The notes: generated by a model not told the origin, from the letters alone. Shown: positions 15,784-21,908, counted from the stretch's first letter. The stretch: 40,271 nucleotides of DNA from an uncultured Nitrospirota bacterium (GCA_913051775.1 CAJXCL010000013.1:1-40271); one strand, 5' to 3'. Numbers and translations: made by a program.

Positions 15784-16698
15784 ATGTTTTTTAGATTTTC
15801 AGACATTATTCCAAGAGAACACGGGGTGTGGGCAATATTACTTGTCCCCTATTTTTCCGGAGCTTTGGCGAGAGGGAAACCGGGAGTTCCATCCTTGCTG
15901 CTGTTGATTTGTGTCATATCTCTTAATTTACTTAGAGGCTGTGGAGAGTTTTATTCATTGAACATTGTTAATAAAAAAGAATTCTATCCAAACATAAAGC
16001 GTCGAGGTGACGCAACCAAAAGGAGCTGTCGCTCCGGTGAGCTACAAAAAAAAAATTGCTCAAAAAATAAGTTTTTACAGAGTAATAGTATAAAGTCATT
16101 TTACATCTACACTTTTTTTATTTTTGTTTTATTTTTACTTCTATCATCGGCTCTTCTATTTTATTTTCAATTATGGAATTTGTTGATTTTTGGATTTTTA
16201 GCTTTTTTGTTGATTGGTTTGTATTATCTGATAATTATTAAAAAAAAATATAAGCGAATTACCCAACAGTTCATTGCCTTTTCAGGACTGACTCTTACTG
16301 CTCCAGCGGCATATTATGTTACTACAGGAAATTGGGACGGTAATGTTTTTATAATCTGGATACTAAATGTCATTTTTTTTCAATTAGGAATGCTGTATGT
16401 CCATAACAAAATAAGTTTGCATCAAAAAAGAAAACAAATTGACTCTTTTATTGATAAATTGAAGTTTACTTCAAATCTGTTCACGGGATGGTGTTTCTCT
16501 GTAATTATCTTGTATGGTCTTTTTCTTGCGGGCTTACTTGATCCCGTTTTTTTCGCTATATTACTGCCCATATCCATTCATATTATTAGCGGTATTTTTT
16601 TTTACAAAAGAGAATTACAGATTAAACGAATGGGATATTCTCTTGTAGGACAGGACATCTTCTTTCTTATCATTATAATTTATCTTTTTCGGTTATAA
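15784..16698 (+). CDS. YwiC-like integral membrane protein
   Basis: 304 aa. The N terminus (IIPREHGVWAILLVPYFSGAL) is the YwiC-family hallmark PREHGxWA. Several hydrophobic segments follow (about 15-50, 108-150, 160-205, 230-255, 285-304), so it is an inner-membrane protein of unknown role. A charged, cysteine-containing loop at about residues 72-93 (KRRGDATKRSCRSGELQKK) is not typical and is encoded by two tandem DNA hairpins (15999-16035), which looks like an in-frame repeat insertion. Known for the family: conserved, uncharacterised. Confidence 0.75.
   Translation: MFFRFSDIIPREHGVWAILLVPYFSGALARGKPGVPSLLLLICVISLNLLRGCGEFYSLNIVNKKEFYPNIKRRGDATKRSCRSGELQKKNCSKNKFLQSNSIKSFYIYTFFIFVLFLLLSSALLFYFQLWNLLIFGFLAFLLIGLYYLIIIKKKYKRITQQFIAFSGLTLTAPAAYYVTTGNWDGNVFIIWILNVIFFQLGMLYVHNKISLHQKRKQIDSFIDKLKFTSNLFTGWCFSVIILYGLFLAGLLDPVFFAILLPISIHIISGIFFYKRELQIKRMGYSLVGQDIFFLIIIIYLFRL
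15999..16035. repeat. Two tandem hairpins inside the YwiC-like gene
   Basis: GCGTC-GAGGT-GACGC (15999-16013) and GGAGC-TGTC-GCTCC (16022-16035) are both perfect stems in a GC-rich island inside an AT-rich gene. They keep the reading frame open and encode a hydrophilic loop. Confidence 0.6.
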
Positions 16699-16752
16699 AC
16701 TAGGTCTTAAACAAAAAACTCACGATTTAAATGATGAATTGGGTCAAAAAAG

Positions 16753-16813
16753 GGGTCAAGTTAATCCTTGACTACATGTTAATTTTAAATGAAGCTAAAA
16801 ATAGACTTGACCC
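16753..16813. repeat. Inverted repeat with GGGTCAAGT arms
   Basis: GGGTCAAGT (16753-16761) and ACTTGACCC (16805-16813) face each other across 43 bp, and another GGGTCAA lies at 16741. Such GGGTCAAGTCTA motifs often flank REP-associated transposase units. No transposase is present here, so this may be a nonautonomous or decayed copy. The rest of 16699-16964 shows nothing else. Confidence 0.4.
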
Positions 16814-16964
16814 ATTTTAGATGTTACTCAAGAGAGGATTGAAAAAGGTTAGTAGCTGGGAGAGGGGTGACGGGGGTTTCTAATATAATTATATGTGTTT
16901 TTGGATACGAAAATCAAAAAAAGAGTTTAATTTTTAACTTGAATATCTTGAAAGTCTCAAATTA

Positions 16965-17162
16965 CTACTCAGGAAAAATGCTACTTTTTTGATCCAGTTT
17001 ATATCCCAAAGCTATAATTATTTTTCTCCTGGTATCTAGGCGGCATTCATGTCCTTTTTCAATCCGGTCAATGGTTTGAACTGAAACATTCGCCATACGT
17101 GCCAGCTCAGCTTTGCTCATCATTTGCAATTCTCTAATTTTTTTTACGTGGTTGTTGTTCAT
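16965..17162 (-). CDS. Small XRE-family transcriptional regulator
   Basis: 65 aa, almost entirely one helix-turn-helix: KKIRELQMMSKAELARMANV, then SVQTIDRIEKGHECRLDTRRKIIIALGYKL. The recognition helix and the IEKG turn are canonical. No effector or oligomerisation domain is present, so it likely acts as a simple dimeric repressor. A palindrome TACTCATGAGTA lies 69 bp upstream of its start and could be an autoregulatory site. Its target genes are unknown. Confidence 0.8.
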   Translation of the reverse strand: MNNNHVKKIRELQMMSKAELARMANVSVQTIDRIEKGHECRLDTRRKIIIALGYKLDQKSSIFPE

Positions 17163-17628
17163 AAAACCCTTTCTTATTAATTGCCACTTCTTATCAAAAC
17201 AAGTAATTTATTTATCGAAAAAATGATACTTACTCATGAGTATAATACCATAAAAACACCTAATTTAATATTTTATTATGATAGTTATCAAATAATTATA
17301 TGTCTTGTAATCTTGTGGTTTTACCGTAAAAAATAAACAAAAAGAGGGTTTACTTTCTTTTAAAGAGCATGTGCTGAATTAAATGAAGTTCTTCCTAACC
17401 TAATTGTGGTTGCGGTAGAAGACTGCACTGTGCACTATGCACCTCAACGAAACGAGTTTTAGAAGGGATAACAGGATAGACAGGAAAAAGCACAATAAAG
17501 CGGTCATTATCTACGGAGCTTACGAAAAACAGAGGGCAGACGACAATGAGCAGAAGGTAGTATCTACGTCCCAATTAGTTTTTAAAAATTGAGCTTGCTT
17601 TTAGACCGATTTTTCTTATTATACAAAT
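17163..17628. other. 466-bp divergent intergenic region
   Basis: Between the XRE gene and an unknown plus-strand gene. Apart from the palindrome at 17231-17242 and a GTGCACTATGCACC-like stretch near 17425-17440, I see no structure and no supported gene. Confidence 0.5.
17231..17242. promoter_or_regulatory. Palindrome TACTCATGAGTA, possible operator
   Basis: A perfect 12-bp palindrome in AT-rich DNA upstream of the XRE regulator, next to a TATAAT-like string (TATAATACC). Length and position suit a small HTH dimer. A chance palindrome of this length in the gap is possible. Confidence 0.35.
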
Positions 17629-18711
17629 ATGGAGAAAATTAATAATTTATTCACGGAATTTGTAAATAATCTGAAAAATAATGGTTCAGAGAATTATCAA
17701 AAATACTTCTGTAGACCAGATGACCGGTTTGAGTTTGAAATAGAAGCGTTTAAAGATTTTATAAAGAAACATGAAGTTTTTCCCGATGAATTTGAGCTAA
17801 TTCCTAAAAATAAGAATATCGCGAAATTAAAATACAAGTACAGGAACTCATCAGGGGAAGCAGAAGAAAGATCGGACAACTCCACGTGGGTGCCGATGAA
17901 AAAGGACGGAGAAAGCTGGAAGATTTCCAATAAGGGAGAATATTTAAAATGTCTGGCCGAATCAAAAAAATGGAGAAAAATCAAAACAGAAAATATTATT
18001 TTTTATTTTGATTCTTTCCTGAAAAAAACTTTAGACCAGATGAACGCGGAAAGCGGGTCCTCTGAGTTAATAAATATTAAAAAATATCTTGATATAGAAG
18101 AAGAGCTTAATATTAGCTATATTGTCTATGACGATGAAAAATCACTTCATGAATTAGGATTTAAATCAAACCTCGCGGGTCATGAATGGATAATTTCGAA
18201 TTACCCCTGTGATGTGTTTCAGCTCATTTCTCTTTGCATAAGACGCCTGAACCCGGAACTCCCAAAATATTTCCTCTACGGATTTTCCACTTATTATGCG
18301 TATTATATTTCAAATTCGTCTTTTCCACTTTTTAACTTTCCAAAAGAGGATTTTAACAGGTTAGCGCTAAACAGCATAAAGTACGGTTATTATATTAAAA
18401 TCATAAAACTGCTTAACAACACAGAGTTTCAAAAGTGGACTGAAATGGTATCCATTATGTCTATCCTTTCTCAGCAAGCAGCGCATCCTAATTTAATGGT
18501 TTTTTTAATCACCGCGTCGTTTTTTAAATTTCTTTTTGAGAGCGAAACTGTTGGTGAAAGTCCTGATATCAGGAAAAAACGGATTATTGAAATTCTAAAA
18601 ACAGGCAAAGAGAATGATTTTGAAGATACGTTTAAGAAATTAACAGGTCTGAAAATCAAAAAAGCTGAGAAGCTCTGGAAGAAAGATCTGAAAATAAAAA
18701 GCAGAATTTAA
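17629..18711 (+). CDS. Uncharacterised cytoplasmic protein
   Basis: 360 aa, no signal peptide and no membrane segment. I do not recognise a family with confidence. The N-terminal part (20-120) is charged. The middle (about 185-240) has GHEWIISNYPCDVFQLISLCIRR, then PELPKYFLYGFSTYYAYY. This resembles the layout of peptidase-MA/gluzincin domains, in which HExxH is followed by a Trp/Phe-x-x-x-Gly-Phe-Ala motif, but the HExxH itself is absent. If related, it would be an inactive derivative. Codon use and base composition look like those of its neighbours. It is preceded by a long gap and has no operon partner on its strand. Confidence 0.7.
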   Translation: MEKINNLFTEFVNNLKNNGSENYQKYFCRPDDRFEFEIEAFKDFIKKHEVFPDEFELIPKNKNIAKLKYKYRNSSGEAEERSDNSTWVPMKKDGESWKISNKGEYLKCLAESKKWRKIKTENIIFYFDSFLKKTLDQMNAESGSSELINIKKYLDIEEELNISYIVYDDEKSLHELGFKSNLAGHEWIISNYPCDVFQLISLCIRRLNPELPKYFLYGFSTYYAYYISNSSFPLFNFPKEDFNRLALNSIKYGYYIKIIKLLNNTEFQKWTEMVSIMSILSQQAAHPNLMVFLITASFFKFLFESETVGESPDIRKKRIIEILKTGKENDFEDTFKKLTGLKIKKAEKLWKKDLKIKSRI

Positions 18712-18760: not shown

Positions 18761-19000
18761 CTAATCAGCTATATTAACTTTAGAAAAATCCTTTTTCTTC
18801 TTCTTTTTTTTTTGTAAGCCCATTTCATGTTCTATGATCTTTTTAAGCCCTTCCAGTACCTCCTTCTTTGCTTTTGAAAAGTGTTCAACAATGTCGCTAC
18901 ATTCATCTATTTTATCTTTAAAACCATCAAAAAGTATACAAATAGGACATCTTGCATCTTTCTCCTCTCTGCGTGCATTACTTTTCTTTTTTTTCTTCAT
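18761..19000 (-). CDS. Small CPIC-motif protein next to ArsA
   Basis: 79 aa from ATG 19000, placed after a GGGGG at 8 nt; an ATG five codons earlier has no such signal. It begins with a run of lysines, then carries ARCPICILFDGFKDKIDECSD (two Cys two residues apart, a third about 14 residues later) and a helical, amphipathic region, and ends in a poly-Lys stretch. The Cys pair could bind metal or be redox-active. It overlaps arsA by 23 bp, so the two are co-translated. Family unknown to me; the lysine-rich ends suggest contact with nucleic acid, lipid or an acidic partner. Confidence 0.7.
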   Translation of the reverse strand: MKKKKKSNARREEKDARCPICILFDGFKDKIDECSDIVEHFSKAKKEVLEGLKKIIEHEMGLQKKKKKKKDFSKVNIAD

Positions 19001-20195
19001 TATGATTACCCCCATTAAAAAAGATTGTTAATTCTTTATCCTTCAGCTTTGCGTTAGAAACAGACATATTCTTACAATATCTTGGCAAGGGAATAAAGCG
19101 TTTAAAACTTCCAATTCTTACAATAAGCTCATCCCCGCTCTTGCTGAGATCAATGTCTTTTTTATCGACAAAGGGTAAAACAATGCTAAGCTTGTATTTA
19201 TCTTTAATCTTTTTAAATGAAAATGGTTTTATAACCTTTGATACCGCTAATGGATTTCTCTTACCGTAAATCTCCTTACCAAATCTTTCTAAATCATTAA
19301 TTCCTACAACTTCATGACTTTGCAGATTAATTTTTTTTATTGCAATAGGGGAAAAGTAATCTTCCATAGAATCTATATATCTGCTCTGAACCTCTCGCCA
19401 GGTTTTAAAATATCTGCTAAATCCATCATCCGGCATTATCCTATTGATGAATATTGAATCGACATGCATACCATAAAGGCAAAAATACATGAACGATCTC
19501 TGTGTTTCTTTCATAACAATCTTTTCGGGATTGGTGATTAATCTTACGGAAGTAGTATGGTAACTCTTCATAATTTCCTCAATACCTCTGAGCTTCTTAT
19601 ATAGGTTTTGTATTGATTGAAAATAGAGATCCCCTGGAATTGGGACTGAAGTGACTTTATTTGCTATTGGTCTTACAATTCTTGCCAGATTTCTTTCCAG
19701 TTTGAATAATTTTTTCATATACCACTCAAGAGCAGTGGGCATAATGATAAACCTTAATGATTCTCCAGTAGGAGCGCAATCCAGCAAAATCACGTCAAAT
19801 CTCTTTTCTTTAAAATATCTGTTAATATAAAAAAGGGCGCTGACTTCTTCCATACCAGGTAAAATAGCCATCTCTTCTGCCAGTATCTCATCCAGGCCCG
19901 TTGCATTAAAAAGAGATGAGATGTATTTATGAATATCGCCCCAATTTTCTTCTATCTCTTCTTGCACATCAATCTCTTGTATCCACAAGTTTTTGCATAC
20001 TTTAACCGGTTTGCCCCTCTCCCTGTCCATTAACCTCTTATCCATGTCAAAGGAATCGGAAAGGCTGTGTGCCGTATCAAGAGACATAATGATTGTTTGT
20101 TTGCCTCGTTTTGCACAAGAAACCCCTGTTGCTGCGGCAACTGTTGTCTTGCCAACGCCTCCTTTGCCAGCAAATAAAATAATGCGTTCGCTCAT
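18978..20195 (-). CDS. ArsA/Get3-family ATPase with C-terminal HSP20-like domain
   Basis: 405 aa. P-loop GKGGVGKTT at 10-18, switch I DTAHS at 40-44, switch II LDCAPTGES at 138-146, all intact, with the signature lysine K11 of the SIMIBI class. The last 80 residues (about 318-395; KYKLSIVLPFVDKKDIDLSKSGDELIVRIGSFKRFIPLP) form an alpha-crystallin-like beta sandwich known as the ArsA HSP20-like domain. There is a single ATPase half, so it should dimerise as Get3 does. It is flanked by a PEBP gene and a Cys-rich small protein rather than arsB/arsR, so arsenic resistance is unlikely. A protein-targeting or metallo-chaperone role is inferred. Confidence 0.9.
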   Translation of the reverse strand: MSERIILFAGKGGVGKTTVAAATGVSCAKRGKQTIIMSLDTAHSLSDSFDMDKRLMDRERGKPVKVCKNLWIQEIDVQEEIEENWGDIHKYISSLFNATGLDEILAEEMAILPGMEEVSALFYINRYFKEKRFDVILLDCAPTGESLRFIIMPTALEWYMKKLFKLERNLARIVRPIANKVTSVPIPGDLYFQSIQNLYKKLRGIEEIMKSYHTTSVRLITNPEKIVMKETQRSFMYFCLYGMHVDSIFINRIMPDDGFSRYFKTWREVQSRYIDSMEDYFSPIAIKKINLQSHEVVGINDLERFGKEIYGKRNPLAVSKVIKPFSFKKIKDKYKLSIVLPFVDKKDIDLSKSGDELIVRIGSFKRFIPLPRYCKNMSVSNAKLKDKELTIFFNGGNHNEEKKEK

Positions 20196-20243
20196 CCTTG
20201 TTTGTGTTCCTTTTTTGGTACGCCCGAAAGGCGTTAAGTTTTG

Positions 20244-20711
20244 TTACCGCCCGTAACTTCCGGTGGTAGTTGCCTGGGCGAGTATTTTACCTTCCAAAGC
20301 TTTTTTGAAATCAGAAAGAGAAACATTTGCATCCAGGTCCAATTTATCCACACTCAACGCATAGACAGTACAAACATAAGGATGATTACCGCTTCCTGCC
20401 GGAGGTTGCGGTCCACCATAACCAACACTGCCATAGGTGTTATTGAGTTCCTTGCATCCTGCTGGCATATTTTTCCCTGACGCTCCTTCCTCAATGCTGT
20501 TCGTACTTGCTGGAATATTGATGAGAAACCAATGAACCCAGTTGTTGGCAACAGGATGCGGGTCAACAATTGAAAAGGCAAAAGATTTCGTTTCTGCAGG
20601 GGCGTTGTTCCAATCAAAAGGCAGAGATATGTTCTCTCCCCCGATTTCTTTCATAATATACGTGGTGGAAATATTATCTCCGTCATCAAAAGCATCAGAT
20701 TTTAATTCCAT
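20244..20711 (-). CDS. YbhB/YbcL-type PEBP protein
   Basis: 155 aa. The PEBP ligand-pocket motifs are present: FAFSIVDPHPVANNWVHWFL (usually DPDAP) and GYGGPQPPAGSGNHPYV followed by VYAL. No signal peptide, so cytoplasmic. AGGAGGT four bases before the ATG is one of the best ribosome sites in the window. It sits 49 bp upstream of arsA on the same strand. Bacterial PEBP functions are poorly defined; the kinase-inhibitor name comes from eukaryotic relatives. Confidence 0.9.
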   Translation of the reverse strand: MELKSDAFDDGDNISTTYIMKEIGGENISLPFDWNNAPAETKSFAFSIVDPHPVANNWVHWFLINIPASTNSIEEGASGKNMPAGCKELNNTYGSVGYGGPQPPAGSGNHPYVCTVYALSVDKLDLDANVSLSDFKKALEGKILAQATTTGSYGR

Positions 20712-20762
20712 CTTACCTCCTAAAAAAACTCATACTGGTGGTTAACAATAAAAAGGGAAGAA

Positions 20763-21356
20763 CTATTCCCCTGTTTTTTTTCTTTTTTTCATCATTTCTT
20801 TAACAGAAGCCGGGATGAGGTTGTCCATAACTTCGCTTATAAGTTCACCAGTTACTTCTTTACATCCCTTTTTTTTCGCTTGATCTTCTATGGCTTTCTG
20901 CGCCATGCCCCTCACAAAAAAGGGAGCTTTTTCAAGACGGTCTTTGGCCTCCTGTGTCCAGGTTAATCCGTCCTTTTTAGACTTTGTTTCATTGAAATAC
21001 TTTTCAAATTTGTTCAGAATCGACTGGTTCTTTCCCGTCCGCTTTTCTAAAAAGGACTGGATGTCCCCTATCACTTCTTTTTTTCTGACGTTTTTCATTT
21101 TTTCTTTGGCTTTATCAAATGCTTTCATTTGCAATTCTTCAAACCCCATATTTTTCATGCGACGCGAGGCAAATTTCATGGATTCATCCCTTATCTCTGA
21201 TAACAATTCGGAAGTAATCTCTTTCATCCCTCTTTCTTTTGCCCTGATAACCATTAATTTCTTAATTCCGGAGCGGACAAAGTCCGGGGCATTCATTACT
21301 CTTATCTTTGCCTCTTCAGACCAGATAATTCCCTCAGTATTCGAAAAATCTTCCAT
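20763..21356 (-). CDS. Double PCP_red-domain protein
   Basis: 197 aa with two copies of the small helical domain found at the C terminus of light-independent protochlorophyllide reductase subunit B. Copy 1 spans about 10-58 (WSEEAKIRVMNAPDFVRSGI, then ERGMKEITSELLSEI); copy 2 about 126-175 (WTQEAKDRLEKAPFFVRGMA, then KKGCKEVTGELISEV). A lysine-rich helical linker joins them. There is no chlorophyll gene nearby, and the domain also occurs alone in non-photosynthetic bacteria. AAGGAG supports the start. It sits 52 bp upstream of the PEBP gene, in the ArsA cluster. Confidence 0.8.
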   Translation of the reverse strand: MEDFSNTEGIIWSEEAKIRVMNAPDFVRSGIKKLMVIRAKERGMKEITSELLSEIRDESMKFASRRMKNMGFEELQMKAFDKAKEKMKNVRKKEVIGDIQSFLEKRTGKNQSILNKFEKYFNETKSKKDGLTWTQEAKDRLEKAPFFVRGMAQKAIEDQAKKKGCKEVTGELISEVMDNLIPASVKEMMKKRKKTGE

Positions 21357-21422
21357 GAATTCTCCTTTAAGTATTTCTCAGCGATCTCCGTGCATTCTGC
21401 GGTAAATTCCTAAGATCTTTTA

Positions 21423-21908
21423 TCAGGGTCTTAAATTCCATGAGGCCCGGGCTAACATATAAAAGGTCATACCGATTAAGGGTAAAACATATTCAACAGA
21501 ATCAAACGTATCTTCACTGAGAAGAGCAGCGCTTGCAATCAAAAAGCGAATTAAATAAAAGATTGCTAAAATAATTACGAGCGTGCGATATCCATTATAT
21601 ATAAAATAGGTTAGCCCCAAAAATAAGGTTCCAGCGAAAACCCCAATAGAAGTGACTAGACTATCGTAACTGATGGTATCTGATTTAGAAACGATATTAT
21701 CTATTCCCGGAATATTTTCCGCAAAAATATCCTCTAAGATGCCGGCAAAATCATGAGACGGCATGGTGACATAAAAAACTGCCAGATACACAATGCCAAT
21801 TAAAAGGTATGCATATGCCGCATGATGATATTTTGCAGTTTTTTTGTGCTCTTCATTAATATATTCAGGATATTTAGTCTTTTTGGTGTAAGTTGGCGGA
21901 CCAAACAT
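21423..21908 (-). CDS. Unknown four-helix membrane protein
   Basis: 161 aa with hydrophobic segments at about 31-49, 84-105, 108-130 and 137-155. The N terminus (GPPTYTKKTKYPEYINEEHKKTAKYHH) is charged and His-rich. I recognise no family. It is the first gene of the minus-strand cluster leading to PCP_red, PEBP and ArsA (67-bp gap), so it might anchor that system in the membrane. Confidence 0.7.
   Translation of the reverse strand: MFGPPTYTKKTKYPEYINEEHKKTAKYHHAAYAYLLIGIVYLAVFYVTMPSHDFAGILEDIFAENIPGIDNIVSKSDTISYDSLVTSIGVFAGTLFLGLTYFIYNGYRTLVIILAIFYLIRFLIASAALLSEDTFDSVEYVLPLIGMTFYMLARASWNLRP

Follow-up and report, generated by a model that had tools for sequence, protein, structure and literature searches.

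Get3d proteins (NosGet3d/All4481 and AtGet3d; NF050088, NosAFP) combine a Get3 fold with a C-terminal alpha-crystallin domain (aCD) and bind tail-anchored proteins in vitro (PMC10248533). According to the authors of that study, it is unclear what role the aCD plays, and targeting would need partner proteins that are unknown (PMC10248533). An ArsA ATPase is also teamed with an HSP20 domain in gas-vesicle clusters, where the two are separate genes (Castillo and Saier 2010, PMC2963123). The locus described here lies in a stretch of 40,271 nucleotides from an uncultured Nitrospirota bacterium; "the window" refers to this whole stretch. It encodes an ArsA/Get3-type ATPase that shares the Get3 fold, the C-terminal aCD and the absence of the CXXC zinc motif with Get3d. 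Unlike AtGet3d and NosGet3d, for which incomplete active sites have been described, the window ArsA has an intact P-loop and switch motifs. ArsA proteins of this type also differ from Get3d in their hosts, which are Desulfobacterales and further groups not known to be phototrophic, and in having a gene-neighbor partner, here called the CPIC protein, while none has been described for Get3d. The archaeal Get3/TRC40 proteins (3ug6, 3zq6) have neither an aCD nor a CPIC partner. Get3d-like proteins are ancient, and a strongly linked small partner carrying a recognizable crystallin-docking motif brings both questions, the role of the aCD and the identity of its partners, within reach of tests on two small genes.

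Results

A preliminary description of the window proposed a cluster of five genes. A search for ORFs and domains confirmed that all five ORFs are real and correctly placed, co-directional on the minus strand at 21908-18761 (Table 1), and plausible ribosome-binding sites were seen in the stretches that were read. The intergenic distances are 66, 51 and 48 bases, each one base shorter than first given (67, 52 and 49), and arsA and the CPIC gene overlap, as had been noted, by 38 bp. The CPIC start is more likely the ATG at 19000, preceded by GGGGGT, which yields a protein of 79 aa and still overlaps arsA. An intrinsic terminator between the PCP_red and PEBP genes was considered as an operon boundary and rejected; a hairpin and a T run are present, and they are no stronger than in shuffled sequences (z 0.03). 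Near the cluster, the region 15784-18711 codes for a YwiC/UbiA-like membrane protein and a 360-aa protein with no family match.

Table 1. Positions of the five genes and of features within the ArsA and CPIC proteins, numbered from the first nucleotide of the window
Feature	Position	Strand	Remarks
Four-helix membrane protein gene	21423-21908	-	161 aa; no family match
Double PCP_red protein gene	20763-21356	-	197 aa; PCP_red x2, 81 bits
PEBP (YbhB/YbcL-type) gene	20244-20711	-	155 aa; PBP/PEBP 124 bits
arsA, ArsA/Get3-type ATPase with C-terminal alpha-crystallin (HSP20-like) domain	18978-20195	-	405 aa
ATPase domain	19266-20186	-	GKGGVGKT P-loop, SLDTAHSLSDSF, DCAPTGESLRF; PF02374
Alpha-crystallin domain (aCD)	19017-19202	-	PF17886; beta-strand pattern in L022 model
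CPIC gene	18761-19015	-	84 aa; no family match; homologues adjoin arsA elsewhere
C-P-I-C of CPIC protein	18938-18949	-	First Cys-Pro common, second Cys not conserved (alignment)
Amphipathic helix of CPIC protein	18806-18889	-	Conserved motif; hydrophobic moment; homologue modelled as one helix, pLDDT 80-85
C-terminal V-N-I of CPIC protein	18770-18778	-	[IV]-x-[IV] tail, proposed to dock on aCD

Pfam domains and relatives bear out the identification of the window ArsA as a Get3-type ATPase with an HSP20-like tail. The protein matches PF02374 (ArsA_ATPase) at residues 4-310 with 318 bits, PF17886 (ArsA_HSP20) at residues 332-393 with 78.5 bits, and TIGR00345 with 250 bits. The closest solved structures by sequence are the archaeal Get3/TRC40 proteins mentioned above. 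A scan of 84,980 species genomes produced 30 relatives, of which 29 are near full length and share 43-58% identity; their hosts are Desulfobacterales, other former Deltaproteobacteria, Acidobacteriota, Latescibacterota, Poribacteria, Nitrospirota and Nitrospinota. The catalytic motifs of the ATPase are invariant in 23 relatives. These ArsA proteins stop shortly past the last crystallin strand, leaving no C-terminal arm, with the exceptions of L141 (tail KKKVKI) and of L022, a fusion discussed below that a quick tree places as the sister of the window ArsA (SH-aLRT 82). We do not file the window ArsA as Get3d because its match to the NosAFP equivalog NF050088, 135.6 bits, falls under the 325 cut-off, and the quick tree took in relatives of the window ArsA only, with no named Get3d sequences.

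The ArsA of arsenite pumps is a pseudodimer of about 580 aa encoded together with ars genes. This identity was rejected for the window protein, which has a single ATPase domain within 405 aa and scores 80 bits against TIGR04291 (cut-off 650). As the preliminary description had it, no arsenic genes were found among the window ORFs scanned.

Most of the 30 ArsA relatives are followed by a small overlapping gene homologous to that of CPIC, and such homologues adjoin arsA in loci from Desulfobacterales, Myxococcota, Acidobacteriota and Latescibacterota. Among 291 genomes of the class that includes L023 (Desulfobacterales), ArsA of this clade, defined by matches over 600 bits, is present in 25, the CPIC profile in 23 and both in 22 (hypergeometric 8e-29, with shared descent ignored). 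Where they co-occur in this class, the coordinates place the two genes next to each other on the same strand, and in the loci read the overlap is usually about 20 bases. The only one of the 23 CPIC genomes lacking ArsA is G323, where a contig end truncates the gene. Of the three ArsA genomes with no match to the CPIC profile, two have a small, divergent gene downstream whose product has the same tail, recognized through a weak profile match in L130 and by eye in L133; no CPIC-like gene was found in the third, G276. In Acidobacteriota, ArsA is present in 27 of 247 genomes and CPIC adjoins arsA in 20 of these, 18 times downstream and twice upstream. The two upstream cases speak for a link in function and against an accident of gene overlap. 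The other acidobacterial ArsA genomes comprise one fusion, one CPIC-like helix that lacks the tail (L159) and five with neither. Only one of 16 Latescibacterota genomes, the one already known, has ArsA of this type. Counting against the two-component explanation proposed below, aCD-ArsA occurs without CPIC in Poribacteria, in Nitrospirota/Nitrospinota, in tandem arsA pairs and in L164-L166. No CPIC match was found in seven genomes whose aCD-ArsA is more distant (322-366 bits). Even so, we are highly confident that ArsA and the CPIC protein are partners.

Other neighbors of arsA vary. The poribacterial loci have a multi-TM gene downstream in the place of CPIC. In Nitrospirota/Nitrospinota loci, similar hydrophobic peptides of 30-32 aa are encoded directly after the aCD-arsA gene (L047:9258-9356, L049:9264-9356) and are possibly a lineage-specific membrane partner. 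Genes of the arsA type stand in tandem with no CPIC in L213 and in the acidobacterial L160 and L161, and the products of these tandem genes may form heterodimers. Fusobacterium vincentii has two aCD-ArsA genes in tandem, with no partner found. A conserved upstream partner was sought and discarded, as the upstream genes scanned change with the lineage (thioredoxin-like, methyltransferase, cation efflux, YceG, WD40, PAP2, FAD oxidase).

The aligned CPIC homologues have in common an early Cys-Pro, an amphipathic helix (ARIEFLxGIxxLxDERIExL in consensus), a linker rich in basic residues and, at the C-terminus, [IV]-x-[IV]. The latter is the motif that docks the C-terminal arm of small heat-shock proteins on the crystallin groove. 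All 52 complete CPIC tails listed contain [IVL]-x-[IVL], although this list was compiled by hand, selected by homology and includes many near-identical tails; the background among other ORF ends of the same loci is 16.5% for [IVL]-x-[IVL] and 3.8% for [IV]-x-[IV]. The ArsA of L022 is a natural fusion that ends ...LDSLEKVIQSRRKRGRRMTRIEVQE, a CPIC-like tail; its 33 extra residues correspond to the end of CPIC minus most of the helix. The helix of L159, which has no tail, counts against the explanation proposed below. A comparison of CPIC with the PDB returned only chance-level coiled-coil matches. The acidobacterial homologues L149, L151, L152 and L153 have a second, N-terminal stretch rich in I-x-I/V (EIKIVIP, EIRITIP).

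Two AlphaFold2 models bear on the position of the tail. The L022 fusion was modelled with an alignment of 42 sequences from which the CPIC fragments, misplaced by MAFFT, were excluded (pLDDT 86, pTM 0.85). Foldseek found archaeal Get3/TRC40 (3ug6, 3zq6) as the best match to this model and a full-length match to Get3d (NosGet3d, AtGet3d). The linker, residues 395-420, is disordered, with almost all pLDDT values <50. Residues 421-431 (GRRMTRIEVQE) have pLDDT values of 72-74, a moderate confidence, and the model assigns a strand or bridge at 425-427 and 429-430, which includes the IEV segment. The tail is thus predicted to pair with another strand, and the aCD groove would be the site; in the window aCD, the groove is expected at the beta4 IDL and beta8 AKL positions. 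The second construct joined L151 ArsA in frame to its CPIC protein with the stop read as Gln, an artificial arrangement by which no read-through is claimed. The helix of this model, residues 416-449, is confident; the tail is undocked and disordered (pLDDT 29-39), which counts against docking. One of the two models thus supports docking, and we lean only slightly toward the CPIC tail docking on the aCD of ArsA.

The other three genes of the cluster behave differently. No PEBP, PCP_red or four-helix homologue was found near arsA in 86 loci totalling 586 kb (relatives from the genome scan plus 57 further loci, the latter taken with about 1.5 kb on each side). Within the phylum of the window, PCP_red is present in 73 of 77 genomes, usually in several copies, and 65 of the 77 have the four-helix protein; the ArsA-aCD fusion was seen only in the window's own genome (60 genomes in one search, 77 in another). 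The four-helix gene stands directly before a double-PCP_red gene in four relatives that have no ArsA of this type (L195-L198). These two genes are a separate conserved pair, an undescribed PCP_red module outside the ArsA system. The protein encoded at 21423-21908, once suggested to be the membrane partner of ArsA, goes with PCP_red instead. PEBP orthologues with 62-67% identity were found in two relatives, G001 and G005, where they do not share a contig with the PCP_red and four-helix genes, and as far as tested the PEBP gene is also outside the ArsA system. As ArsA-aCD was seen in no other genome of the phylum, it is likely that arsA-CPIC arrived by transfer beside a resident four-helix/PCP_red pair. 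A real gene pair can in this way be set apart from three coincidental neighbors; co-conservation holds for arsA and CPIC and fails for the remaining three of the five genes.

Two side observations concern the PCP_red genes. The four-helix/PCP_red pair lies beside DUF481 (L195, L197) or CcmF (L197) genes. Elsewhere in the window's genome (L209:3665-4960 and L210:5626-7947), one fusion joins PCP_red to a radical SAM/SPASM protein and another joins five copies of PCP_red to Usp and a rubredoxin-like domain.

Discussion

We propose that the products of arsA and CPIC form a single chaperone or targeting factor of two components, driven by ATP and related to Get3d, an explanation that, taken as a whole, we regard as reasonably probable. 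ArsA would be a Get3-type ATPase with an intradimeric Walker-A site and an aCD without the C-terminal arm that small heat-shock proteins normally have, and the CPIC protein would supply the missing arm in trans by placing its [IV]-x-[IV] tail in the beta4/beta8 groove. The docking proposed here is the tail-in-groove docking of small heat-shock proteins with a C-terminal IXI motif; in the window the motif sits on a separate small protein. The flexible basic linker of the CPIC protein would carry the amphipathic helix, which may shield or deliver hydrophobic clients, membrane proteins perhaps among them, or regulate the ATPase, as Get4 regulates yeast Get3. A chaperone or targeting role for hydrophobic or tail-anchored clients is suggested by homology to Get3d.

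The rival reading with the best case keeps the partnership and changes the role of the tail. On this view the CPIC protein would be a small regulator or a dedicated client whose helix touches the ATPase domain, and the tail would serve for degradation, dimerization or another purpose. The helix is conserved as well as the tail, and the L151 model is confident in the former and not in the latter. However, the tail persists while the N-terminal half of CPIC varies, the L022 fusion keeps mainly the tail with most of the helix lost, and in the model of this fusion the tail is a beta strand. We judge a client or regulator of this kind to be rather unlikely, with docking through the tail still the reading we prefer.

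Two further readings assign a metal or a larger gene set to the system. A redox or metal chaperone, made of ArsA and a CxxC metallochaperone in the manner of ArsA-ArsD, might be suspected from the CPxC that the window protein shares with several homologues from Desulfobacterales, and from a CPVC in an actinomycete protein described below. On the homologue alignment we reject such a reading of the CPIC cysteines, and the metal or redox component imagined earlier is not supported: many homologues have another residue in place of the second Cys (CPVG, CPIY), and others lack the two altogether. The CXXC zinc motif that cytosolic Get3 has at its dimer interface is absent from all 42 ArsA homologues checked, and no arsenic genes were found adjoining arsA. 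A pair of the ArsA-ArsD kind is very improbable. Even less probable, to the point that we give it hardly any weight, is the original proposal of a five-gene ATP-driven chaperone or insertion system with a membrane partner and PCP_red as a metal or tetrapyrrole component. The five genes do share direction, close spacing and plausible ribosome-binding sites, but the 86 ArsA loci without the other three families, the pairing and the wide distribution of the four-helix and PCP_red genes without ArsA of this type and the lack of conservation of the CPIC CxxC all speak against it.

The arsA-CPIC pair may have a wider meaning. In Nonomuraea gerenzanensis, the one actinomycete examined, a gene for ArsA plus ArsA_HSP20 is directly followed by a gene for a 145-aa DUF5304 protein (PF17230, 32.4 bits, threshold 26.8) with the CPVC, a helix of the form HL..A..EL, a charged linker and the tail EHIDLN, a C-terminal I-x-L. 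This protein is longer and much more acidic than the CPIC proteins and matches their profile weakly (12.7 bits); in the other direction, the PF17230 model matched no CPIC homologue of alignment A1 at E 0.1. No mention of DUF5304 was found in the literature searched, and its likeness to CPIC suggests a possible function. As a tentative generalization, to which we give somewhat less than even credence, there could be a general bacterial Get3-type machine in which a previously undescribed CPIC family, distantly including DUF5304, docks by [IV]-x-[IV] on the aCD of the ATPase itself. If this is true, it would provide the partner that the aCD of Get3d-like proteins has lacked, and give this domain a role across at least four phyla.

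HSP20 and ArsA also meet as separate genes among the relatives of the window's genome. No GvpA was detectable in the window's genome itself. In three of these relatives (L206-L208), an ArsA gene immediately follows a gene of HSP20 size and precedes a large gene. In L208 the HSP20 was confirmed and the large gene codes for a Cdc48-like AAA protein; a gas-vesicle protein and a GvpL/F-DnaJ fusion are encoded at this locus too.
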